A stretch of DNA of 20,148 nucleotides from Nitrospinota bacterium (lineage in GTDB: Bacteria > Nitrospinota > Nitrospinia > JACRGO01), in the NCBI GenBank assembly GCA_016212295.1, contig JACRGO010000058.1:1-20148 (forward strand). Reading direction: 5' to 3'. Position 1 is the stretch's first letter, and the number at the start of each line of letters is the position of its first letter. The notes beneath the pieces were generated by a model that did no database searches, was not told where the DNA came from, and saw only the letters and a list, made by a program, of their open reading frames with translations. Shown here in pieces: positions 931 through 18,350 of this stretch. The position numbers and the translations under genes are program-made.

Positions 931-1869
931 TTATGTCGCTTCCGCGATGGTGGGCAGTTTGGAGGCCATGAGGACCCTGACCAGAAGCTCGCTGTACTCG
1001 TCCCGGTTGGAAGGGCGGAGCATGGCCCCGTCCACTTTGTTTTCCGGTTTTTCCACCTCGCGGAGATTTTTTTCATCCGAGGTAAGGACCAGCAGGCGGA
1101 TTGTGCTGAGGCCCTTCTTCCCCCTGATCACCTTGTTCAGGTCCAATGCGGTGCCGTCCGGGAGGATGTAATCGGAAACTATTATTTCAGGGGCGCTTTC
1201 CAGGCAGTCCTCCTCGGCGGACTTCAAGGACGTGGCGAAGCTGATGGAGAAGGGGATGCCGGTTTCCATGAAAAAATCCTTGAACCTCTCGTACCGGTAT
1301 TTTGAGTTGGACAAAAACATCAGCCTGATCTCGCCAGGTTGAAGCTCGCCCAAGTGGTCAAGGATAAGCTGGTTTTTCTTCCTGTTAAGTTCCCATAGCC
1401 TTTGGCCGGCCCTTTCCAGGGCCGCTGTCTTTTTCCTGTTCAGCGCCAGTTCCCTGCCCTTGTCCTCGGTCTTGACCGCCGCCTGGGCCCGGTCGATCAG
1501 TTTTTTTACATAGTGGGCCAATTTTTTTTCCGGGACTTCCTTCCAGAGCAACCCCAAGGCCCCCTCGTTGACGCATGCCACGATGTGGTCGTTTGTCTCC
1601 TCGAAATCCCTCGATCCGGAAAAGAGAAAGACAAAGGGAATTTTCCTCTCCACCTTGCCTTGCAGGCTGCCCATGGTTTTAATGGACAAAAGGTCCTCCT
1701 CGATGAAATCCATGAAGACCATGCCGCAATATTTTTCGTAAATCCATTGGCAGTCCTTTCCCACGTCCCCGGACGGTTTGCCGGTGAACACCCTGTTCTG
1801 GGCGGAGGCGGCGATTTCCTCCAGCTTTTTCCCGAAGTCCTTGTCCTTTGTGAGGATGCCTATGTTCAT
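931..1869 (-). CDS. Tandem degenerate receiver (REC-REC) protein
   Basis: Predicted 312-residue signalling protein made of two receiver-like folds joined by a basic helical linker (about residues 120-178). In the first domain Asp54 (MVFMDF) is at the phospho-acceptor position, with Ser84 (FLFSGS) and Lys110 (LLWKEVP) in the switch positions. The acidic pair after strand 1 is weak (TKDKD). In the second, Asp233 (IIVSDYILPDG) is kept but the acidic pair is replaced by Asn-Ser and the conserved Lys by Arg (MLRPS). Phosphorylation of the second domain is therefore doubtful. There is no output domain. The start has a GAGGAAT ribosome site inside the end of the permuted CheA gene two bases upstream, so the two are probably cotranscribed and translationally linked. 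It is likely a partner or sink for that kinase (inference). Confidence 0.75.
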   Translation of the reverse strand: MNIGILTKDKDFGKKLEEIAASAQNRVFTGKPSGDVGKDCQWIYEKYCGMVFMDFIEEDLLSIKTMGSLQGKVERKIPFVFLFSGSRDFEETNDHIVACVNEGALGLLWKEVPEKKLAHYVKKLIDRAQAAVKTEDKGRELALNRKKTAALERAGQRLWELNRKKNQLILDHLGELQPGEIRLMFLSNSKYRYERFKDFFMETGIPFSISFATSLKSAEEDCLESAPEIIVSDYILPDGTALDLNKVIRGKKGLSTIRLLVLTSDEKNLREVEKPENKVDGAMLRPSNRDEYSELLVRVLMASKLPTIAEAT

Positions 1870-1871
1870 AA

Positions 1872-4007
1872 TTATTCCTCTACCTTAATGTATTCGAATC
1901 CGGTCACGTCATAATAGTTGCGAAGCCTCTCGGTAACGTAACGGCTTATTTTCTCAACTGAATGGGAGGTGGTGAGCAGTATCTTCATTGTGTCCAGCAC
2001 CAGCCCTTCCTCGATCTCTTCCATTGTGGGGAGCGTTGAATGGATAATCCCGATCCTGCTCAATTGCTTCAGAATGAGATAGGCCACAAGGAACGGCTCC
2101 TGGTAATCCGAGGAAAAGTTCAGCAGTATCTGGTAAGGGACGCTTCCCTTTGATATCTCCGAGTAAAAGGAAAACCGCGCCAAGTGGTCCATGGCAAAGG
2201 TTTTTTCCTTCAAATCGCCGAGGTCCATTTCCACCTGCGCGGTCTCCGCCGGGGCCTTGAACTTCTCCAGGCTCTCCCTGGCCTTCGGGCTGATCTCCTC
2301 AATGGGTTTCCCGGCGCGGATGGAGCCGTAGTTCGATTCCACGCACTTGACCGCGTCCAGCAGGATATCGATGGAGTCCTCATTTATCTCAACCTTCCCC
2401 TCCCGCATTCCCTCTATTACTGACTCCACCTCGTGTATATAATCGCCGAGGGCCTTTTGTCCGATCATCAATAAGTTTCCCTTGAGTGAGTGGAAGCTCC
2501 TGAAGGTGGAGTTGATCAGGCCGGAGTTTTTGGGGTCCGCCTCCAGGTCGAGAAGGACCTTGTCCAGGTCCTTTACCATGCTCTTGATCTCCTCGAAAAA
2601 CACGTCCAGGTGGTCGGCGGAAACCGCTTGGGCCTGTTGGGCTTGGTCCGCCGCGGGCCGGGCCGAAGGCCCTTTTTCCGTCGTCTTCACTTTTTCCGCC
2701 GCGGGTTTTTCCTCAATGCCTTGCGCCGCCTTTATGGCCGCCCCCTTTTTTTCCATCGCCTCGTATCCTTTCCTGTAACCCCTGGACAGGTTAATGATCT
2801 CCTGTATGTCCAGGATATAGCTGAAGCGGTTGCCGGAGAGGACCGAGACACCTGAGATGCCCTGGAGGGAAAAATAGTTGTCCAATGGAATGATGACCAG
2901 TTTTTGCGGGGAAAGAAACTCCGAAACCTTCAGGGCTATTTTTGAATTTTTGTATTCAATAATGATCACCGGAATGGCGCCGCCGGTGATTTCCACTTTC
3001 CTGCCGTAAAGGAGTTGCATCAAATCATACAGCGGGATGATCTTCCCCAGGTAAAGGATGTTTTCCCCCTGGCGCATCGTGGTCTGTATTTCGTTTCGGG
3101 TGATTCCGAGAGTGGTTGCGACGTTGGCTATGGGAACGGCGATATAGAGTTCGTTGATCCTGACCACAAGGGCGTCCGTGATGTTGACAGCGGCGATTTC
3201 AGGAATCTTGTAGGTAAAGGACGTCCCTTTGCCCTCCTCGGTCTCTATGAAGACCTCGCCGCCCAAATTGCCTATGCATTCCTTTACAACGTCCATCCCA
3301 ACTCCGCGGCCGGAGGTTTCAGTGGACTGCGCTGCCGTGCTGAATCCGGGAAAGAAAATAAAGTCCAGGGCCTTTTGCTTTTCCATGGACCTTGCTTCTT
3401 CCTCGCTGAGCAGCATTTTTTCAACGGCCTTTTTTTTCACCTTTTCAACGTCGATTCCCCTGCCGTCGTCGATTATCTGGATGAAGGTGAATTTTTCCTT
3501 GTTATATGCTTTCAGGGTCAGTACGCCGGTGGGGTCCTTTCCCTTCTGCTTTCTTTCCAGGGGGGACTCGATCCCGTGGTCGATGGCGTTCCGGATCTGG
3601 TGGGTGAGGACCTCGTTAAGGTGTTCCGCTATGCTTTTGTCCACTAGCGTGTCTTCCCCGACTATCTCCAATGCCACCTTTTTGTCCTTCTGCTTGCTTA
3701 GTTCCCTGGCCAGCCGCCGGAAGGACAGGAAGGTCTCCTTGATCTCCACCATCCTGATTTCCATGACCAGGTGGTGCAGGTCGGCTGAGATGCGGTCCGA
3801 GGTAATGGATGAAACCTTCACCTCCTCGAGCACGTCCTTGGAAAGGGGCTGGCGGTGGTCGGAGAACTCCGCGATCTTTCGCTGGATAAGATTGAGGTTG
3901 TTGGAAGCGATTATTACTTCGCCGGTGAGGTCCAACAGCCTGTCCAGGTGGGCGAGGCGGACCGCCATCCGGCTTGCTTCAATCTTGGAAAATTTGGATC
4001 CATCCAT
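1872..4007 (-). CDS. CheA-type histidine kinase with permuted domain order
   Basis: Predicted 711-residue cytoplasmic kinase. Domain order by motif: P3 dimerisation helices (about 10-105); P4 ATPase (about 119-270) with N box at Asn140 (RNAIDHGIE), G1 DDGRGID (180-186) and G2 SGRGVGMD (232-239); P5 CheW-like domain (about 272-410); a Lys/Ala/Pro linker (about 415-462); P1 histidine phosphotransfer domain (about 465-585) with phospho-His506 (FHSLKG); and a C-terminal P2-like domain (about 612-705). Canonical CheA runs P1-P2-P3-P4-P5, so the phosphotransfer half has moved to the C terminus. All catalytic motifs look intact. It overlaps the upstream receiver gene by 29 bases and is followed two bases later by the double-receiver gene. 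No receptor, CheW, CheR or CheB gene is in the window. It may use those receivers as substrates rather than drive classic chemotaxis (inference). Confidence 0.85.
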   Translation of the reverse strand: MDGSKFSKIEASRMAVRLAHLDRLLDLTGEVIIASNNLNLIQRKIAEFSDHRQPLSKDVLEEVKVSSITSDRISADLHHLVMEIRMVEIKETFLSFRRLARELSKQKDKKVALEIVGEDTLVDKSIAEHLNEVLTHQIRNAIDHGIESPLERKQKGKDPTGVLTLKAYNKEKFTFIQIIDDGRGIDVEKVKKKAVEKMLLSEEEARSMEKQKALDFIFFPGFSTAAQSTETSGRGVGMDVVKECIGNLGGEVFIETEEGKGTSFTYKIPEIAAVNITDALVVRINELYIAVPIANVATTLGITRNEIQTTMRQGENILYLGKIIPLYDLMQLLYGRKVEITGGAIPVIIIEYKNSKIALKVSEFLSPQKLVIIPLDNYFSLQGISGVSVLSGNRFSYILDIQEIINLSRGYRKGYEAMEKKGAAIKAAQGIEEKPAAEKVKTTEKGPSARPAADQAQQAQAVSADHLDVFFEEIKSMVKDLDKVLLDLEADPKNSGLINSTFRSFHSLKGNLLMIGQKALGDYIHEVESVIEGMREGKVEINEDSIDILLDAVKCVESNYGSIRAGKPIEEISPKARESLEKFKAPAETAQVEMDLGDLKEKTFAMDHLARFSFYSEISKGSVPYQILLNFSSDYQEPFLVAYLILKQLSRIGIIHSTLPTMEEIEEGLVLDTMKILLTTSHSVEKISRYVTERLRNYYDVTGFEYIKVEE

Positions 4008-4626: not shown

Positions 4627-6099
4627 CTAATGAATGAATCTCCGCACCCTTGGGACCAGGTCCTCCATCTTGAAGGGCTTCATGACAAAGTCATTCGCGC
4701 CCAACCGGAAAGCCTTGTCGCGGATTTCAATATTATCGTCCCCGGTGACGACGATTACAGGCGTCGATTTTGTCGCCTGATTTTTCCGGATATGCTCCAA
4801 TACCTGAAAACCATCCATGCCAGGCAGATAGATATCCAGAATAAAAAGGTGAGGAGGGGCGGCATCCATTATTTCTATTGCTTTTTCCCCGCTCCCCGCT
4901 TCCAGGAACCCCAGTTTAAGTTCACTGAGAAAACCTTTTATCTCATCACAGGCTTTCTTGCTGTCATCTATAATTAACACCTTTGGCCTGACGAAAGGAA
5001 GAACGGCATGAAAGACGCTCCCTTTGCCTTCGACGGATTCCACGCGAAGGTCTCCGCCGTGCAGCTTCATGATGTCGTGGCTGATAGGCAGGCCGAATCC
5101 AGTGCCTTTTTCCCCTGCCGTTCCCATGGTGGATGTGACTTCTTCATGGTTAAAAATTTTTCCCAGCATTTTCGGGCTGATCCCCACACCCGTGTCCTTT
5201 ACCGCGATGGTTGCCTGTTCTCCGGGAGGCGCGAAAATCGTGATGGCGTCTCCCTTGCGGCAGAACTTGATGGCGTTGGACACGAGGTTTTGAATGACCT
5301 CCCTGAAAAGGCTTGGATCTCCGTATAACCGGAAATCCCTTGCAAGCTCATTCACTATCGTGATCTCCTTTTTTTTCGCGAGGTTTTTCAAAATCGCGGC
5401 CACCTCAAGGCTAATAAAATAACCGTCAAAAAATCTTTTCTCAAGAACGACCCTTCCTGTTTGAAGCCTGCTGATCTTCAGTAATTCCTCAATCATTTGA
5501 ACCAGCCGCTTCCCGCTCTCCATGGCGCGGCTGATCATTTTTTTGTGCTCCTCGTGGACGGGATTTTTCTCGTCATCATGAATCATGGTTAAAAACCCCA
5601 GTATCGAATTAAAAGGAGATTTCAAATCATGGGCTACCAGGGAGACGAATTTGTCCTTCAGCTTGGTGGCCTCCTCGGCCTCATTCTTGGCGCGCTCAAG
5701 CTCCTTCATGATTCCAGCCCTCTCCAGGGCGTAACGGATAACCCGAGGCAGGGCATTCAAATCCGCCTTGCCTTTGATGAGGTAGTCCTGCGCCCCGCTC
5801 TGAACGGCCTGTATGGCCACGTTTTCATCTTCCGTGCCGCTTAAAACCACTATGGGAAGGTACGGAGAGAATTTCCTTACTTTCCTCACTGTATCCATGC
5901 CTTTGGAATCCGGCAGGTTGAGATCCAAAAGGATGAGATCAAACTCCTGCTCCGCAAGCTTGTTTTCCACTTCCTTTAAATTGTCCGCATTGGCGCATGA
6001 AAAGGACATGGAAGCTGATGAACCCAGGATGGCCTCGACCAACTCGACCTGAAAGGGGTCGTCCTCAGCGAGGAGGATTCGCGCGTGATTCCTGTTCAT
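4627..6099 (-). CDS. Hybrid sensor histidine kinase, REC-HisKA-HATPase-REC
   Basis: Predicted 490-residue soluble protein. The N-terminal receiver has Asp13-Asp14, phospho-Asp59 (LILLDLNLPD) and Lys109. A helical linker (about 125-150) leads to HisKA with His157 (LVAHDLKSPFNSILGF). The ATPase has an N box at Asn271/Asn275 (NLVSNAIKF), G1 DTGVGIS and G2 GTGFGLPIS. The C-terminal receiver has Asp378-Asp379, phospho-Asp422 (FILDIYLPGMDG) and Lys474. There is no membrane segment, so its input probably arrives as a phosphoryl group or bound partner on the N-terminal receiver. A clear AAAGGA ribosome site stands nine bases before the ATG. It lies 34 bases after the large membrane hybrid kinase on the same strand, so the two probably form one operon and phosphorelay (inference). 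Confidence 0.88.
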   Translation of the reverse strand: MNRNHARILLAEDDPFQVELVEAILGSSASMSFSCANADNLKEVENKLAEQEFDLILLDLNLPDSKGMDTVRKVRKFSPYLPIVVLSGTEDENVAIQAVQSGAQDYLIKGKADLNALPRVIRYALERAGIMKELERAKNEAEEATKLKDKFVSLVAHDLKSPFNSILGFLTMIHDDEKNPVHEEHKKMISRAMESGKRLVQMIEELLKISRLQTGRVVLEKRFFDGYFISLEVAAILKNLAKKKEITIVNELARDFRLYGDPSLFREVIQNLVSNAIKFCRKGDAITIFAPPGEQATIAVKDTGVGISPKMLGKIFNHEEVTSTMGTAGEKGTGFGLPISHDIMKLHGGDLRVESVEGKGSVFHAVLPFVRPKVLIIDDSKKACDEIKGFLSELKLGFLEAGSGEKAIEIMDAAPPHLFILDIYLPGMDGFQVLEHIRKNQATKSTPVIVVTGDDNIEIRDKAFRLGANDFVMKPFKMEDLVPRVRRFIH

Positions 6100-6133: not shown

Positions 6134-9100
6134 TTAATGGCGGTTTGCGGTCAATGCCGTTTTTAGTTCCTCATGCGCCTTCTTCAGCGCATTGAGTTTT
6201 TCCACCGCCCCGTCTAATTTTTTCTCCCTCCCCATTGCCTCTATTTCCTGCGAGAGCCGCTGAACTCCGGCCGCGCCCAATTGGCCCGCCGCCCCTTTGA
6301 TGGTATGGGCCAGGGCATAAATTTTTTCAGCGTCTTCCGCTCTCACGGCTTCTTCCAGGTCCGCCATGTTTTTGTCCGTGGTTTCCAGAAATTTTTGAAG
6401 GAGTTTTTCCAGCTTTGTCCGGTCATTATTCAGCAAGGCCAGGAGGTTGGATAAATCGTAAACAGGCCCATCAGCCAAGGCGGCTTTTTCCCGCGCCTCT
6501 TCCTGGCTCGGCGCGTCCGGTGATTTACCCGCTTGCGCGAACCGGCTTATCTTCGCTTTCAGTTGGTCCAGGCTTACGGGCTTGGAAATATAATCGTCCA
6601 TGCCGGCCTGAAGGCATTCTTCCCTGTCCCCGGACATGGCCCTGGCTGTCATGGCGATGACGGGGGTACGGAGTGACGAGTGACGAGTGACAAGTGACGA
6701 GTTAAGGTCATCTGTTTCCAGAGCTTTTTCCGTCTTTCGTCCTTCGTCCCTCCGCCTTTCCCGTTCCTTCTTCCGAATTTCCTTAGTCGCTTCCAATCCG
6801 CTCATCACCGGCATCTGCACATCCATGAGAATAAGATCAAAATCCCCCTTCTCCCATTTCTCAACCGCCTCCTTGCCATTGTTGGCCACTGACGCTTTAT
6901 GACCCAGCAATCTCAGAGCGGACAAGGCCACTTCCTGATTGACCGGATTGTCCTCCACCAGAAGGACGTCCAGACTCCTTTCCTTTTTCGTGGAAATTTT
7001 TGGCTTGCTCACGGCTTCCTCTGGCTTAATCCTAACAGCCGCCACTTCCTGGATTGTTTGTAAAAGGTCGGATTGCGCCACCGGCTTTTGGAGAACCGCG
7101 TTAATGCCCGCCTTCTCGCATTCGGTGGAAATGCCTGATCCAGAGGAGGTGAGCAGGATGATTTTCAGGTCCTTGTTTTCAGGCAATTCCCGGATTTTCC
7201 TGGCAGTTTCGATCCCTGAAATTCCAGGCATCTGATGGTCCAGAAGGAGCAATTTGAAAAAAGAAGACTTTTGATTGGCCTCCTCAATCCTGCGAAGGGC
7301 CTCTTCCCCGCTTTCCGCCCTTTCCGATGCCAGGTTCCAGCAGGACAGCATTTCCTCCAGGATGAGCCGGTTAGTGGAATTGTCGTCCGTAATCAATACC
7401 CGCAGTCCCTGAACGTCTTGCGGAAGCGACGGCGTTTTTTCCGGAGGGGCCTCGCATATCCCTAATTGCGCGGTAAAGTGAAAGACGCTCCCTTTGCCTA
7501 ACTCGCTTTCCAGCCAGATTTTTCCGCCCATCATCTCCACCAGTTCGCGGGAAATAGTGGCGCCTAGGCCGGTCCCGCCGTATTGCCGCGTGATGGAGGC
7601 GTCCACCTGTGTGAAACGTTCAAAGATTTCCTGCTGTTTTTCCTTGGGGACGCCGATGCCGGTATCCAGGACGAAGAAGTGGAGAGTGCAAATTTGCGAT
7701 TTCAGATTTGAGATTTCAGATTCAGAATCCTCGCTTTCCAACGCCTCTTCCATCTTCTGTCCTCCTCTCTCCGTCTTCCGCCCTCCGTCCTCCGCCTCTC
7801 GTCCCTTGTCCTTCAGCTTCACTCCCAAAACCACTTCTCCCTTTTCAGTGAATTTGATGGCGTTGCCTAATAAGTTAAGGACCACCTGTTTGAGTTTCGC
7901 CGGGTCCCCTGTCAAATATTCCGGGACGCCCTTGTCTATCTGGACCAGAAATTCCAGGTTCTTCGCGTGGGCCTTTGCCGCGGTTTGCTTGGCGGTGGTT
8001 TCCACAAGTCCCCTCAAATTGAAATCCACCCTGTCCAGTTCCATTTTGCCGGCTTCTATTTTCGATAAATCCAGGATGTCATTGACAAGGGTCAGCAAAT
8101 GCTCGCCGGACGAGTATATCAACTCAAGTTTCTTGCGTTGGTCGGTGGTCAAGCCATTATTCAGGATTATTTCCGTGAGACCGAGAATTCCGTTCAGAGG
8201 CGTGCGTAGTTCATGGCTCATATTGGCGATGAATTCGCTCTTGGCCTGATTGGCGATCTCCGCTTTTTCGAACAGTCTTTCAGCCAGTTCCCTGGCTTTG
8301 TCCGCCTCGTCCCGGATGGTTTCCGATACCTTCAGCGTTTTTTTCAATTCCTCCGCGGCGTACTCAGCGGCCTGGCGGGCCTGGGCCAGGTCCTTTTCCA
8401 TTTGAATCCGCTCGGTGACGTCGTGCTTAATGGCCACGAAATGGACAACTTTGCCTTCAGGGTTTTTTACCGGTGAAATGGTCATTTCCTCAGTGTAAAT
8501 ATCCCCGTTTTTCTTTTTATTGGTCATTCTTCCACGCCATATTTCTCCACGAAGAATGGTGTCCCATAAATTTTTATAAAAAATGGCGTCATGTTTCCCG
8601 GATTTCAAAATGCTGGTTTTTTGGCCGATAACCTCCTCTGGAGAATAAAAAGTCATGGCCGCCAGCGCCGGATTCGCATATTCAATGATCCCATCCGGGC
8701 CAGTGATGACCACGGAATCGCCGGACTGCTCAATCGCGTTTTTAAGCTTCTGCGACTCGCTTTGGGCCTTTTTTTGCCCTGTAATATCATGGAGGGCAGT
8801 GACCACCTCGCTTATCCCTCCCTCATCGAAAATCGCGGTTGTGGCGCACGCCACTGGGACCTTGCCGCCGTTCTTTCTAGTGAACAGGTATTCTGGTTCC
8901 CTGATGGTTTCACCTGAGTCCAGTATCCTTATGGCCGGACACTCCCCGGCGGACAAGGGGGTCCCATCGGATTTTTCCACGCGAATTTTATCCGTGATAA
9001 CTTCCCCCATTAGTTCGCCTTCGGTCCAGCCCAAGAGGTTTTCAGCTTCAGGATTCATGAACTTCAGGCGTCCTTCCCTGTCCGTCACCAGTATCCCTTC

Positions 9101-9886
9101 ACCCAAGGAGCAGGTTATGTCCCGCACCTTTTTCTCGCTTGAGGCCAGGCGGTGCGCCTCTTCACTGATGTGCCGGATCATTGGACGAAAAATACCAAGA
9201 CCGATAAGGGCCAAAGCGAGTAAAATGAGGCCGAAGGCGGCCTCTACGAATATCTCCTGTCTTCTGATTTTTTCCTCGGCTTCTTTTGCCTGCTGGTTTA
9301 CGATGGCGTCCAGCAAGGCCAATAAGTTTCCAGCGACGGCGTCGTCCGCCAGTTTTTTCACTGAGGGATTGCCATGGCCTAGTTCCTCTTCCGGCAGATT
9401 CGCCGCTTCCCTAGCGGCGGCCACAAAGGCCCGCACCCGTTTGTCCACATAGCAAGGACCTTGGAAAAACAGGGCGCGCATGGCTGGGGAAAGGTCGCCC
9501 GCCATGCCTATTTCCGGATTGCCGTTGAGAAGGCGGTTGTGGGATTCCTCCATCAAGTCGGCGGCTTTATGCAGTTCTTCGCGGTTTTGCGCCCTGCCGG
9601 ATTTATCGTTTGAATGAATGATTTCATCGGCGAGAATGTAAATGCGTTGTGTAAGCATACGCTGGCGGCCGCTGATGTTAATGAACGCGGCGCTGTCATG
9701 GCTGTGCTGAATGGTTTCAAAAATAAAAACCAGGCCGGCTATCAAAAGCGACGCGATCAAGGCCAGCGCTATAAAATAATTTCTTTTCGCCTTTTTCGCG
9801 AAGGCGTCAGCCACCGCCCGCGGCGAGCGTTGGGAAGCCCGGCTTGCATGCGGGGCATTGCTTGAGGAACTGAATTCGTTTTGCAT
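6134..9886 (-). CDS. Membrane hybrid histidine kinase, PilJ-PAS-PAS-HisKA-HATPase-REC-REC-HPt
   Basis: Predicted 1250 residues. TM1 (about 37-57) is followed by a periplasmic PilJ-type sensor (ISGRQRMLTQR) and TM2 (about 212-233). Two PAS domains (about 245-500) and a coiled coil lead to HisKA with His558 (MSHELRTPLNGILG), an ATPase (N box LLGNAIKF, G1 DTGIGVP, G2 GGTGLG), REC1 (Asp883, LLLDHQMPG), REC2 (Asp1022, LILMDVQMPVMSG) and a C-terminal HPt with His1194 (LAHTIKGAAGQLG). This is a complete internal phosphorelay of the BarA/ArcB type. The related PilJ N-terminal sensor family includes nitrate/nitrite sensors, but the ligand here is unknown. Two segments, about residues 695-732 in the ATPase and 1037-1074 in REC2, are low-complexity and look like in-frame repeat insertions. 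The start has no strong Shine-Dalgarno sequence. Confidence 0.88.
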   Translation of the reverse strand: MQNEFSSSSNAPHASRASQRSPRAVADAFAKKAKRNYFIALALIASLLIAGLVFIFETIQHSHDSAAFINISGRQRMLTQRIYILADEIIHSNDKSGRAQNREELHKAADLMEESHNRLLNGNPEIGMAGDLSPAMRALFFQGPCYVDKRVRAFVAAAREAANLPEEELGHGNPSVKKLADDAVAGNLLALLDAIVNQQAKEAEEKIRRQEIFVEAAFGLILLALALIGLGIFRPMIRHISEEAHRLASSEKKVRDITCSLGEGILVTDREGRLKFMNPEAENLLGWTEGELMGEVITDKIRVEKSDGTPLSAGECPAIRILDSGETIREPEYLFTRKNGGKVPVACATTAIFDEGGISEVVTALHDITGQKKAQSESQKLKNAIEQSGDSVVITGPDGIIEYANPALAAMTFYSPEEVIGQKTSILKSGKHDAIFYKNLWDTILRGEIWRGRMTNKKKNGDIYTEEMTISPVKNPEGKVVHFVAIKHDVTERIQMEKDLAQARQAAEYAAEELKKTLKVSETIRDEADKARELAERLFEKAEIANQAKSEFIANMSHELRTPLNGILGLTEIILNNGLTTDQRKKLELIYSSGEHLLTLVNDILDLSKIEAGKMELDRVDFNLRGLVETTAKQTAAKAHAKNLEFLVQIDKGVPEYLTGDPAKLKQVVLNLLGNAIKFTEKGEVVLGVKLKDKGREAEDGGRKTERGGQKMEEALESEDSESEISNLKSQICTLHFFVLDTGIGVPKEKQQEIFERFTQVDASITRQYGGTGLGATISRELVEMMGGKIWLESELGKGSVFHFTAQLGICEAPPEKTPSLPQDVQGLRVLITDDNSTNRLILEEMLSCWNLASERAESGEEALRRIEEANQKSSFFKLLLLDHQMPGISGIETARKIRELPENKDLKIILLTSSGSGISTECEKAGINAVLQKPVAQSDLLQTIQEVAAVRIKPEEAVSKPKISTKKERSLDVLLVEDNPVNQEVALSALRLLGHKASVANNGKEAVEKWEKGDFDLILMDVQMPVMSGLEATKEIRKKERERRRDEGRKTEKALETDDLNSSLVTRHSSLRTPVIAMTARAMSGDREECLQAGMDDYISKPVSLDQLKAKISRFAQAGKSPDAPSQEEAREKAALADGPVYDLSNLLALLNNDRTKLEKLLQKFLETTDKNMADLEEAVRAEDAEKIYALAHTIKGAAGQLGAAGVQRLSQEIEAMGREKKLDGAVEKLNALKKAHEELKTALTANRH
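6665..6775 (-). repeat. In-frame repeat insertion in the REC2 domain of the large kinase
   Basis: The plus strand shows tandem gtgacgagtgacgagtgac units (about 6672-6700), then a pyrimidine-rich ctttcgtccttcgtccctcc tract. It encodes a charged and Ser-rich insert (RRRDEGRKTEKALE... SSLVTRHSSL) between the GLEATKEIRK helix and the PVIAMTA strand, where related receivers have only a short loop. The reading frame is kept and the flanking motifs are intact. Confidence 0.6.
7688..7804 (-). repeat. In-frame repeat insertion in the ATPase domain of the large kinase
   Basis: It encodes a low-complexity segment (REAEDGGRKTERGGQKMEE, then SEISNLKSQIC) between the N box and the DTGIGVP motif. Homologous kinases normally pass directly from the VVLGVK strand to LHFFVLDTG. 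At the DNA level it joins a ctccgtcttccgccctccgt tract to a segment rich in gatttcagatttgag. That segment belongs to the same sequence class as the intergenic repeats at 780, 4442 and 10081. Confidence 0.6.
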
Positions 9887-10238: not shown

Positions 10239-10340
10239 TTAAAATTCTTTCCGGATTTCATTTTTAAGTTCCTCATACGCCTTCTTCAGGGCATTGAATT
10301 TTTCCGCCACGCCGTCTAATTTTTTTTCCCTTCCCATTAC
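10239..10340 (-). pseudogene. Fragment of an HPt C terminus (remnant of a hybrid kinase)
   Basis: Read on the minus strand from 10340, the frame gives VMGREKKLDGV, then NALKKAYEELK, ending at a TAA at 10239. This matches the last residues of the large kinase (AMGREKKLDGA, NALKKAHEELK). The DNA matches about 6160-6243 at roughly 70 of 82 positions by eye. It overlaps the end of the MHYT frame in another register. It therefore looks like the 3' end of the same lost hybrid kinase, left after an internal deletion. Confidence 0.7.
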
Positions 10341-11065
10341 CTCATGAGGATGTTTTCAAAAAGTTCTGACTGTTTCACCGGTTTCATCAGACTCGCGCTG
10401 ATTCCCAGTTCTTTCGATTTAATTGAAAGCGGCCGGGTCGCCGATGAAAGGAGAATGATTTTCAAATCCAGGCATTTGATGATCCGCAGCAACAAATGAA
10501 AAGGCGGGCCTTTTTGAGTTGCATTTTTCATGGCCTCAAGGGCCGCGCTTTCAGGACTTAAAGGGAAAAAGACGGCGGCCATCCCGGTATAGTGCACTCC
10601 GCATACGACAAGGCCCATGGCCAAGGCGCAACAGGCTTTTAAGGCCAAATATTGCCGGTCCATTTTTTGTGAAAATTCAGCCATGATCCAAAGGGCCGTT
10701 GTGGTCCCCTTTTTTTTCAGCAGGGAAAAGGCAGCTCCGGCAAAGAAGACAGCGACGAGCCAGGAGAACATGGTTATCATCCGGTCATAAGCCATTGGCA
10801 TGGGCAGCCGGAAGGCCATCATGCCGATAAAATGCATGGCCCATATTCCGCTCCCCATGTCAAAGGCCCCGGCAGTGAGCCATATATCCATAATCCTTTT
10901 ACCGGGTTTTTGAATGATAAAGCGGCTTGATATCTCCAGCGCCGAGAAGGAGGCAAAGGAAGCCACAAGGTAAGACAATAAGACGAGGACAAGGTCGTAT
11001 GAGCCCGTTAAAGGGGTTTCGTGGACCTCTGATGCGAGGAAAAAGTTTTTAAAAATATTTGGCAT
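10337..11065 (-). pseudogene. Truncated MHYT sensor joined to the second half of a receiver
   Basis: The 242-codon frame starts as an MHYT membrane sensor with about four hydrophobic segments and two motifs (AMHFIGM and GVHYTGMAA). Intact MHYT domains have three motifs and six or seven segments. After about residue 185 it switches abruptly to the C-terminal half of a receiver (LKIILLSSATRP, then ELGISASLMKPVKQSEL), which keeps the Lys but lacks the phospho-Asp and acidic pair. The PAS, HisKA, ATPase and second receiver expected in an MHYT hybrid kinase are absent, and an HPt fragment follows out of frame. At least two internal deletions are needed to explain this. The frame is open and might still make a membrane protein, but not a kinase. 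Confidence 0.75.
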
Positions 11066-13977: not shown

Positions 13978-14395
13978 TTAACTCCCACTGGCCACTGTGT
14001 CCAAATTGTGTCCAGGATTTTCTTTTCCCAGGTCAAGAACCTTAATTGCCTGCCTGAGATTTTCCCCGGATAAGTGAGCATACCGCTGGGTCATACGCCC
14101 ATCTTTATGCCCCAAAAGCCTTTGGACGGTATAAATATCCGTTCCTCCCTGGACCAGCATGGAAGCGAAGTCATGCCTTAGATTGTGCCAATGGAAATCT
14201 TCAAGCCCTGCCTTAACGCAGGCTTCTTTAAAGGCCCGCTGGACCCTCCGTTGGAAACTCCTGTAGTCAAGCTGGCTTGGAAATACCCTTTTATTGATAT
14301 CCACCACCTTGTTCAACTGGAGTTTTTTTAGACACTCCAACAGGGTTTCGCAAATAGGGACTCCAATAGCTTCATCGTTTTTCATGACCTCTTCC
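13978..14395 (-). pseudogene. C-terminal remnant of a tyrosine recombinase (integrase)
   Basis: The last about 135 residues carry the catalytic motifs His-x-x-Arg (HNLRHDFAS), His (RLLGHKD) and the nucleophile Tyr (MTQRYAHL). They end near the tRNA as element integrases usually do. The N-terminal DNA-binding domains and the box with the first catalytic Arg are missing. Instead the frame runs straight back into the ATPase of the primase/helicase at about 14385-14396 (TLCRGGREE to VMKNDEAIGVP). Without the first Arg it should not recombine. The coding end overlaps the tandem arm-type sites at 13994-14014. Confidence 0.8.
13994..14014 (+). promoter_or_regulatory. Tandem arm-type integrase sites, left end
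   Basis: ACTGTGTCCAA followed by ATTGTGTCCA gives two TGTGTCCA units with an 11-bp period. The same 21-base sequence occurs in the same orientation at 19769-19789, near the other end. Tandem direct repeats flanking the core are typical of arm sites bound by the N-terminal domain of lambda-type integrases; that assignment is inferred. Confidence 0.65.
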
Positions 14396-15720
14396 CTCCC
14401 TCCCCTGCAAAGTGTGCTTATGTTATCCACGATTACAAGAGATATGCCCGCCAAGTGGTCTTCAATTGCCCTTTGGTCTTCAAGGTCCGCTAAATTAAGA
14501 TTCCCGCGCATTTGCAAGTCCGGCGTAATTATATTTAGGGGGGCCACGGGTCCTTTATCCACGGCGTAGATGATCTTTGCAAGGCGTTCCTGTAGGACCG
14601 CCTGGCATTTCGCCGTCACAAAGCAAAACCCCACACGGCTTTGGGGCCTGGAACCGCAGGAATTGGCCCCCGCTTGCTACCGCCACAGCGGCATTAAGGG
14701 AAAAAAATGTTTTGCCCACGCCACGTGGAGCATGGACCATGCAAAGGCCCTGGGTAGGAAGCCAAGGAGACAAGATATTTTCTCGTGGTGGAAATTGCAT
14801 TAAGAGAAATTCACGGACAGACACGGCCCTTACCTTGGGTTCTTTTTGTGGAACTTCTGTGGGCTTTTCAGCAAGCGGCTTATATTCCGCCGTGGAGTCA
14901 ACCAAGGAAAGCAATTCTGCTTTAATTGTTTCGAGGTCTTTTCCCTCTCCCTTGCGGGCTTCTATCCAGTCGCTTACATCGCCCTTTTCCGGCAAGCCTG
15001 GGAGGGTAACAACCTTAACGGACTTGGCGATACCACAAAGGGAACGGGCCACGTCCTGGCCATGCTGTTGTCCAGGTGTGTCATTATGGGGAAAAATTGC
15101 AACGTCTTTATCCTTGAGAGATTCGGCGTACTCCTTGCGCCACTTTCCCGCGCCGCCGCTATTGCATGTAGCGGTAAGGCCAAGGGAGCGGAGATTATCA
15201 ACGTCCTTTTCTCCTTCGCAAATATAGACCGTTTCAGCCTTGAGAACTTCGGAAAGGTGGTAGAGCGTCGGCGTGATTCCTTCAAGGTTCCAAATCCATC
15301 CGCCCTTGCCGTCCGGCCTTCGTTGGCTAAAAGACTTTGGATTGTAACGGACAACCTGATAAAGCAGCTTTCCGCTTACGCCCATATAATTATAAGTGGC
15401 CTCAATTTTTCGCTCTGGTTTTGGATGGTGGCCGTTTCCATTTCCGCCTGGGAAGGAAATGGCTTTCTCCGCAAGGGCTTGGCGGGCAGTAGGAAAACCA
15501 ACGGCATGAATTTTTTGATAAAGCGCAAAAACATCTAAATTCCCTTCCTTAGCGCATTTGCTTTTACAAGCTCCAAACTTTCCCCCGGCGAAAACGGAAA
15601 ACGAGGGATTCTTATCTTCATGGCCTGGGATCGGACAGCGTATCAGTTTAGCCGTCCTGTCAACGCCAGGTAGTATGTCGTAAATTGTGAGCCGCTCCTT
15701 GATCCGTCTTTTGATTTCAT
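14396..15720 (-). pseudogene. Broken primase/helicase: CHC2 zinc finger, TOPRIM, AAA ATPase
   Basis: Reading down the minus strand, one frame is open from about 15719 to 14610. It encodes a CHC2 zinc finger (IRCPIPGHEDKNPSFSVF and ACKSKC, about 15585-15650), a TOPRIM domain (YICEGEKD; FPHNDTPGQQHG) and a RepA-like ATPase with Walker A APRGVGKTF. The frame then shifts near 14605-14612 and continues as LQERLAKIIYAV to VIVDNISTLCRGG before fusing to the integrase. At the 5' end the ATG with the best ribosome site (15718-15720) is one base out of frame, and an alternative start at 15736 meets a TAA after four codons. The TOPRIM Asp-x-Asp has become His-x-Asp. The protein would have primed and unwound DNA for element replication. 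Confidence 0.78.
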
Positions 15721-17023: not shown

Positions 17024-17548
17024 TTAAAACCCTATCCGCTTTTTTGGTTTTAGTGGCGGTTCCAGCAACTGCCTTATTGCGTCAAAGACAACTCTGAATT
17101 GAGCGTCATATTTTCTTTCAATGCCTTCGATCTTCCTTTTTAGGTCCGCATGTTCTGAAAGAAGCTCTCTCATACGGACAAAGGCCCGCATGATTTGGAT
17201 GTTGACCTCTATTGCTCTATCGCTATTCAAAACGCTGGAAAGCATGGCAACGCCTTGCTCTGTGAAGGCATAGGAAAGATATTTTTGATGCTGCCCACGG
17301 CCTTTCTTTAAGGTCACAAATTGTGACCTTAGAGATTCCTCTTCTTTTGTGAGTTGAAACATAAAATCATCAGGGAATCTCTTTATATTGCGCTTTACCG
17401 CCTGGTTTAGAACCTTTGTTCCAACCCCATAAAGCTCCGCCAAGTCCCTGTCCAGCATAACTTTTTTCCCACGGAGTATAAGTATTCTGCCTTCAATGCT
17501 CTCCTGGGGAACCAAGCTTGTGGTTTCCGGTTTCTTCTTTTTTGACAT
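17024..17548 (-). CDS. ORF6N domain protein
   Basis: Predicted 174 residues. Residues 18-110 match the ORF6N fold ([63 protein letters not shown]), followed by a long helix ([18 protein letters not shown]) and a coiled-coil tail. ORF6N domains belong to the KilA-N/Bro group, are common on phages and mobile elements and are thought to bind DNA, but their exact role is unclear. The start at 17546-17548 is chosen because GAAGGAG stands at good distance; a longer frame from 17587 lacks such a site. It seems intact, unlike the replication genes of the element. Confidence 0.85.
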
Positions 17549-17692
17549 ACCCTTCTCCTTCTGGCAACCATGATTTTTTAAAACCACGGGAATCCCTTGC
17601 CGTTATTGAGTCCGGCAGTTTGTTCCCCCTATATACCCGTTGACAAACTGACATACTCCCCTTCATGTTTCCCCTGTCCCTAAATCTAAAGT

Positions 17693-17708
17693 TTTTGGTC
17701 CACCAAAA
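17693..17708. repeat. Short perfect palindrome between ORF6N and recombinase genes
   Basis: TTTTGGT-CC-ACCAAAA, two 7-base arms with a 2-base centre, 25 bases beyond the 3' end of the recombinase gene. No T-run follows on the minus strand, so a terminator role is doubtful; it could be a protein-binding site. Confidence 0.4.
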
Positions 17709-17732
17709 TAGTAAATTTCATGCCCTTAAAAA

Positions 17733-18350
17733 TCAAGCATTTACGACGGCGTAATTTCCGGGGTTTTTGGGACACCCCAAAAGACGGCTTAAAGTGGACC
17801 GGGGAACACCCATTGCCGTTGCCGTCTCTCTTAAGGAAAGACCGTCCTTTTGCATCCTCTTGGCCTTTTTCGGGTCCACCGATACCCTTGGCCGTCCAAG
17901 CTGTGTTCCTTTCTCCCTGGCCCGTCTGAGGCCGCTCTTGACCCTCTCCTTGATGATATCCCTTTCGAGTTGGCTAATGGCTGAAATAATGGTGAATATG
18001 GCCTCTCCCAAGGGACTTCCGGTGTCTATGTTCTCCTGGAAGGAAATGAAAGATATCCCAATATGCCGGAAGGTGTGCAAGGACTCCACAAGATGCTTTG
18101 TGGACCTGGCGAAGCGGTCGAACCTCCAGACCAGGACAGCATCAAACCGTTTCTTCCCGGCATCCTCCATAAGCTTGTCCAGGGCTGGACGCTTTTCAAT
18201 GGTCCCTGATAGCCTGTCAACGTATTCCTGAAAGACCTTAAATCCTCTCTCCTTTGCATAGCGTCGAAGGTCCAGGAGTTGGGCTTCCGGGTTCTGGTGT
18301 CCGTTACTGGTTGAGACCCTGGCGTATAAGGCAACTCGTTTTTTATTCAC
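17733..18350 (-). CDS. Serine recombinase (resolvase/invertase family)
   Basis: Predicted 205 residues. The catalytic domain (about 1-140) has the nucleophile Ser13 (YARVSTSNG), the conserved RPALDKLMEDA and DRFARS segments and the QLERDIIKERVKSGL helix. A C-terminal helix-turn-helix (LSLRETATAMGVPRSTLSRLL, about 170-190) completes the small resolvase/invertase layout. Such enzymes resolve dimers or invert segments by a 5'-phosphoserine link. The start is GTG (18348-18350) with AAAGG five bases upstream, and it overlaps the end of a small ribbon-helix-helix gene by eight bases, so translation is coupled. No matched inverted crossover sites were found close by, so its substrate is unknown. Confidence 0.9.
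   Translation of the reverse strand: MNKKRVALYARVSTSNGHQNPEAQLLDLRRYAKERGFKVFQEYVDRLSGTIEKRPALDKLMEDAGKKRFDAVLVWRFDRFARSTKHLVESLHTFRHIGISFISFQENIDTGSPLGEAIFTIISAISQLERDIIKERVKSGLRRAREKGTQLGRPRVSVDPKKAKRMQKDGLSLRETATAMGVPRSTLSRLLGCPKNPGNYAVVNA

Follow-up and report, generated by a model that had tools for sequence, protein, structure and literature searches.

In this study, we analysed a window of 20,148 nt, the whole of contig JACRGO010000058.1 of a Nitrospinota draft genome (assembly GCA_016212295.1), and characterized a cluster of three genes consisting of a cheY-type gene, a cheA gene and a gene whose product has a degenerate receiver-like half (Table 1). The cheA gene, which the initial annotation had positioned correctly, lies on the minus strand, with its ATG at 4007 and its stop codon at 1872-1874. 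Its product contains the five domains of a CheA histidine kinase, and the canonical order P1-(P2)-P3-P4-P5 is not kept, as P1 and P2 stand after P5.

Table 1. Features of the permuted cheA locus (positions are those of the window)
Feature	Residues	Position	Strand	Basis and remarks
Permuted cheA		1872..4007	(-)	ORF, 711 aa; P3-P4-P5-P1-P2; five Pfam domains; full-length orthologue, 74% identity
P3 dimerisation domain	16-84	3756..3962	(-)	PF02895 H-kinase_dim, 28.1 bits (cut-off 23)
P4 HATPase_c	128-270	3198..3626	(-)	PF02518, 60.9 bits (cut-off 26.4)
P5 CheW-like domain	279-406	2790..3173	(-)	PF01584, 53 bits (cut-off 23.5)
New P5-P1 tether	409-464	2616..2783	(-)	Ala/Glu/Lys/Gln-rich; little conserved; predicted disordered
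P1 HPt domain	467-553	2349..2609	(-)	PF01627 Hpt, 35 bits (cut-off 24.6)
Predicted phosphoacceptor (HSLKG)	His506	2490..2492	(-)	Motif position and alignment to T. maritima P1
P2 response-regulator docking domain	625-690	1938..2135	(-)	PF07194, 29.4 bits (cut-off 23)
CheY-type single receiver, 134 aa		3979..4383	(-)	PF00072, 98.5 bits; orthologue 81% identical, same place
312-aa protein, degenerate receiver-like C-terminal half		931..1869	(-)	PF00072 sub-threshold, 23.2 bits at 197-291
Hybrid histidine kinases		4627-6099 and 6134-9886		Directly upstream in the window

The domain order P3-P4-P5-P1-P2 had been proposed from the sequence and was borne out by a Pfam scan with the curated cut-off of each domain, which all five domains exceeded, the scores for P3 and P2 being modest. 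Both the Hpt and the P2 domain expected between residues 465 and 705 were recovered there (467-553 and 625-690), and P1, P3, P4 and P5, the core domains of CheA, also passed their cut-offs in the orthologue described below. No Pfam match to HisKA was found ahead of HATPase_c; the CheA-type H-kinase_dim takes its place. The N (NAIDHG, residue 140), G1 (DDGRG, 180) and G2 (GRGVGMD, 233) boxes of the P4 ATP site are intact, GFST is found at 221, and the sequence matches solved P4 structures. Residues 15-404 match the P3-P4-P5 structure of T. maritima (1b3q, E=4e-69), while residues 465-555 match the solved CheA P1 domains 1tqg and 2ld6. When aligned to T. maritima P1 (1tqg, E=9e-13), His506 of the HSLKG motif pairs with the histidine of HTLKG, which agrees with the phospho-histidine originally assigned, and His525 and Glu528 likewise pair with a His and a Glu, residues that we take to make up the hydrogen-bond network surrounding the phosphoacceptor. 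The statement that the catalytic motifs are kept thus holds for both the ATP-site boxes and the HSLKG histidine.

An AlphaFold model of the C-terminal half gave a confident helical P1 (pLDDT about 70-90) and, at low confidence, a P2 with the expected beta-alpha-beta-beta-alpha-beta order. In a Foldseek search with this model, the P1-CheY/P2 structure 2lp4 ranked first, P1 structures were matched with a TM of up to 0.89 (T. maritima P1, 1tqg), and a CheA P2 (1u0s_A) was matched with a probability of 1.00 and a TM of 0.67 by target length, the latter from the low-confidence part of the model. A full-length AlphaFold model from two sequences had a mean pLDDT of 36 and was too poor for use.

A search for the same architecture in other genomes, which the initial annotation had suggested, yielded one full-length orthologue (P0002, locus L026) in the Nitrospinia genome OFTM173. 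It aligns over residues 1-711 with 74% identity and carries all five Pfam domains above cut-off in the same order. Both species also have the gene order cheY-cheA-degenerate receiver and the same in-frame P5-P1 junction. Between the two proteins, identity is 76% in P3, 77% in P4, 74% in P5, 81% in P1 and 83% in P2, and falls to 21% in the P5-P1 tether. The ratio pN/pS is 0.14 for P1, 0.15 for P2, 0.18 for P4, 0.25 for P5 and 0.66 for the tether (409-464); synonymous sites are near saturation and these figures are therefore comparative, segment against segment, rather than exact. Since the relocated P1 and P2 combine the highest identity with the lowest pN/pS, they are the most constrained parts of the protein; purifying selection is strongest there, whereas the tether drifts freely. 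The segment between P1 and P2 (residues 561-622, window 2142-2327) is 77% identical between the orthologues, unlike the normally floppy P1-P2 linkers of CheA, and could represent an additional helix or a segment for docking.

Could the gene be an artefact, in which two neighbouring partial cheA genes were wrongly joined by assembly or gene fusion? The source genome (3.74 Mb, 90.5% complete) is a draft of 237 contigs with nine Pfam matches to H-kinase_dim, and its CheA-type genes, at least nine in number, could confuse an assembler. Nevertheless, the in-frame junction and the flanking genes recur in a second species, independently assembled, whose protein is 74% identical; a divergence of this size means that two different species are involved, so that one assembly error common to both is not a credible explanation. 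Moreover, P1 and P2 have no close match among the canonical paralogues that do exist in the genome (about 33% at best) and thus did not come from a paralogue through misassembly. We therefore rejected misassembly, which we consider extremely improbable. Given the retention of the rearrangement in a second species, together with the strong constraint on P1 and P2, the permuted CheA is probably a natural, working variant rather than debris, as had been supposed.

To judge how widespread the architecture is, we scanned 77 genomes of the phylum, 398 genomes of Pseudomonadota and 369 genomes of the class to which the Methylococcaceae genome G077 belongs, and read the best 30 loci from each of the latter two sets; plasmids were also searched, with domain order left unchecked there, and other phyla were sampled by a single contig scan for close relatives only, which returned two relatives, one of them full length. 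Ordering by contig matches merged the core and P1 of the window gene into one match, and we therefore relied on an HMM ordering test, which recovered the window gene. Among the fetched loci (the rest of the phylum and the Pseudomonadota sample, including the 30 loci from each of the two larger sets), a subset of the CheAs of those genomes in which some loci overlap, P1 preceded the core in 150 open frames and followed it only in the window gene and its orthologue, which appeared repeatedly through overlapping loci. P1 is also in front in the other orderable CheAs of the source genome. Within the phylum (77 genomes), a closely similar P1-P2 block in the permuted arrangement was confined to the source genome and its one congener (OFTM173, also G001), and no further permuted CheA was present among the loci read from the phylum, the Pseudomonadota and the Methylococcaceae-class samples. 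As far as tested, the permuted CheA is thus confined to two genomes of one genus; with part of the CheAs read and other phyla covered by that single scan, rarity outside the sampled groups is only suggested.

In the literature, a survey of 13,673 CheA sequences covers loss, duplication and fusion of domains (P2 lost or doubled, several Hpt domains, additional CheW or receiver domains) as well as split CheA, and its main text does not contain 'permut' or describe an architecture with P1 after P5 (PMC10782961). We found no paper on a permuted or rearranged CheA in the openly licensed literature. The core domains are what CheA is defined by in the survey (PMC10782961). Domain order is the usual pattern and not a defining criterion. 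The conserved permuted CheA is probably new, as a variant of a known enzyme.

How the arrangement arose can be read in two ways. Circular permutation would proceed by tandem duplication of cheA followed by loss of the outer parts. The alternative, to which we give somewhat less than an even chance, is that a P1-less CheA core was fused with a separate P1-P2 protein of a split system. Bipartite CheA with a separate Hpt gene is known from the main text of the survey (PMC10782961), a P1-less core cut by a contig end is found in the sister genome OFTM173 (L139), and the P5-P1 linker resembles a joint that lacks conservation. Yet P1 and P2 have kept their usual order side by side, the analysis recovered no free P1-P2 protein, and the trees give no sister for either the core or P1. 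In core trees (P3-P5) built from 40 and 79 proteins, a long stem of 1.68 changes per column leads to the orthologue pair, for which no sister is supported, and P1 was too short for a resolved tree; as a consequence, the data favour neither permutation nor fusion, and 'circularly permuted' refers to the outcome rather than to a proven route. FastTree grouped the pair with the CheA on contig C145 of the source genome (0.89), a grouping that was gone in the careful tree. The ORF in the sister genome (G001:C560, minus strand, 718 aa) comprises P3-P4, two CheW-like domains and the start of a receiver; no P1 was detectable before its P3, and this core may need a separate Hpt protein.

Returning to the permuted CheA itself, we consider it quite likely to be a functional CheA-type histidine kinase in which P1 and P2 have been transferred together from the N-terminal to the C-terminal end and which would follow ordinary CheA chemistry. 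We infer its activity, choice of partner and coupling as follows. P3 would dimerise the protein, and P4 would bind ATP and phosphorylate His506 of a P1 that some 56 residues of tether connect to the C-terminal end of P5; this step would probably take place in trans between the two subunits of the dimer. P2 would dock the neighbouring 134-aa CheY, to whose Asp57 P1-P2 would pass the phosphate, and P5 could, in principle, join an array of receptors and CheW whose genes lie elsewhere in the genome. CheA generally has a compact dimeric P3-P4-P5 core to which long, disordered linkers attach P1 and P2 (PMC10653900), and the Hpt domain, when liberated, is reported in the survey to retain full function (PMC10782961); moving the tether should therefore be tolerated. 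Tentatively, we also propose that, with the tether to P1 leaving from the array-binding P5 and not from P3, receptor control of P1 access may be geometrically unlike that of every described CheA, forming a small class in one Nitrospinia genus.

The initial annotation had paired the kinase with two receiver proteins, a description that fits one neighbour well and the other in part. The gene for the 134-aa CheY lies upstream of cheA, its frame overlapping that of cheA by 29 bp in both species, and its product is a strong receiver in which Asp13, Asp14, Asp57 and Lys109 are kept in both; by analogy with the CheY family, these are the acidic pair, the phospho-Asp and the conserved Lys. The 312-aa protein encoded downstream, in contrast, is a degenerate receiver that falls short of the Pfam cut-off (30.2 bits). 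Its orthologue in the same place in OFTM173 is 67% identical, and no full-length relative was found elsewhere in the phylum. Asp233 is kept in both species, while the acidic pair is missing and Arg replaces the conserved Lys, suggesting that the protein is a pseudo-receiver partner rather than a second phosphate acceptor; it may act as a binding partner while itself taking no phosphate. Its N-terminal half may be a second pseudo-receiver.

It had also been noted that no chemoreceptor genes accompany the kinase, which is true of the contig; that contig ends 930 bp past the cluster, so that the neighbourhood is cut short, and 15 receptor genes lie elsewhere in the genome. Among the scanned window proteins and at the OFTM173 locus, no receptor, CheW, CheB or CheR gene is adjacent to the permuted cheA, and none of the 15 receptor genes stands beside it. 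This absence of receptor, CheW and adaptation genes, on both the window contig and that of the orthologue, fits another reading of a genuine permuted CheA, in which receptor coupling has been lost, P5 is structural only and the protein is a soluble relay for neighbouring kinases and receivers; two hybrid histidine kinases are indeed encoded directly upstream, and the cluster otherwise contains receivers only. We consider this reading rather unlikely. P5 is still CheW-like (53 bits), 74% conserved and under constraint (pN/pS 0.25), as expected if it binds partners. The hybrid kinases upstream in the window are missing from that position at the OFTM173 locus, and the receptor genes, together with many CheW matches in the genome (25 by Pfam), could serve the permuted CheA. 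The chemosensory set is large for a 3.7 Mb draft genome, and contig C90 carries an apparently decayed cheA with several stop codons.

CheA is among the best-studied signalling enzymes. Like the canonical CheA of E. coli, B. subtilis and T. maritima, the permuted protein has P1-P5, the ATP-site boxes, the HxxKG motif and P1 followed by P2; in the canonical protein, however, P1-P2 precedes P3, whereas here P3 is N-terminal, P1-P2 follows P5 and the tether runs from P5 to P1. In split CheA (CheA3/CheA4 of Cereibacter sphaeroides, and bipartite operons of Hpt and core) P1 is likewise not in front of P3-P4-P5, and in both arrangements the P1 detached from the front is still expected to be phosphorylated by the core, but in the permuted CheA P1-P2 and the core form one polypeptide, joined via the C terminus. 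CheA-CheY fusions (CheA of the ACF, Tfp and F5 classes) share the presence of extra material after P5, although in these it is a receiver and P1 is N-terminal, whereas the permuted CheA has P1-P2 there. ArcB-type hybrid kinases also have a C-terminal HPt phosphotransfer domain; in these, HisKA is the first phosphoacceptor and HPt the second relay, while in the permuted CheA, with its CheA-specific P3 and P5, HPt is the sole predicted phosphoacceptor. The permuted variant shows that the order of the tethered parts of CheA is not fixed, and it is a natural experiment that probes the extent to which the kinase needs P1/P2 to be linked to the dimerisation domain. It is also relevant to the rival models of P1 sequestration and P4 control (PMC10653900): if P1 is indeed tethered to P5, it would provide a natural test of whether sequestration of P1 in the kinase-OFF state needs the P1-P2-P3 connection.

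Several other genes of the window deserve mention. The hybrid kinase at 6134-9886 (1250 aa) has a PilJ-type N-terminal sensor, two PAS domains, HisKA, HATPase, receivers and a C-terminal HPt. Its HATPase part contains inserts rich in charged residues (DKGREAEDGGRKTERGGQKMEEALESEDSESEISNLKSQI), and the last receiver holds a similar one, as if a repeat had been inserted in frame. At 10337-11065, a 242-aa MHYT-domain protein ends in an apparent receiver-domain tail (ILLSSATRPLSIKSKELGISASLMKPVKQSELFENIL) and is probably the remnant of an MHYT hybrid kinase whose middle was deleted. At 13978-15385, what remains of a phage-type integrase (PF00589) overlaps the remnant of an AAA_25/primase-like protein; these are apparently broken copies of an integrated element and are followed by an ORF6N protein and a resolvase (17024-18350).
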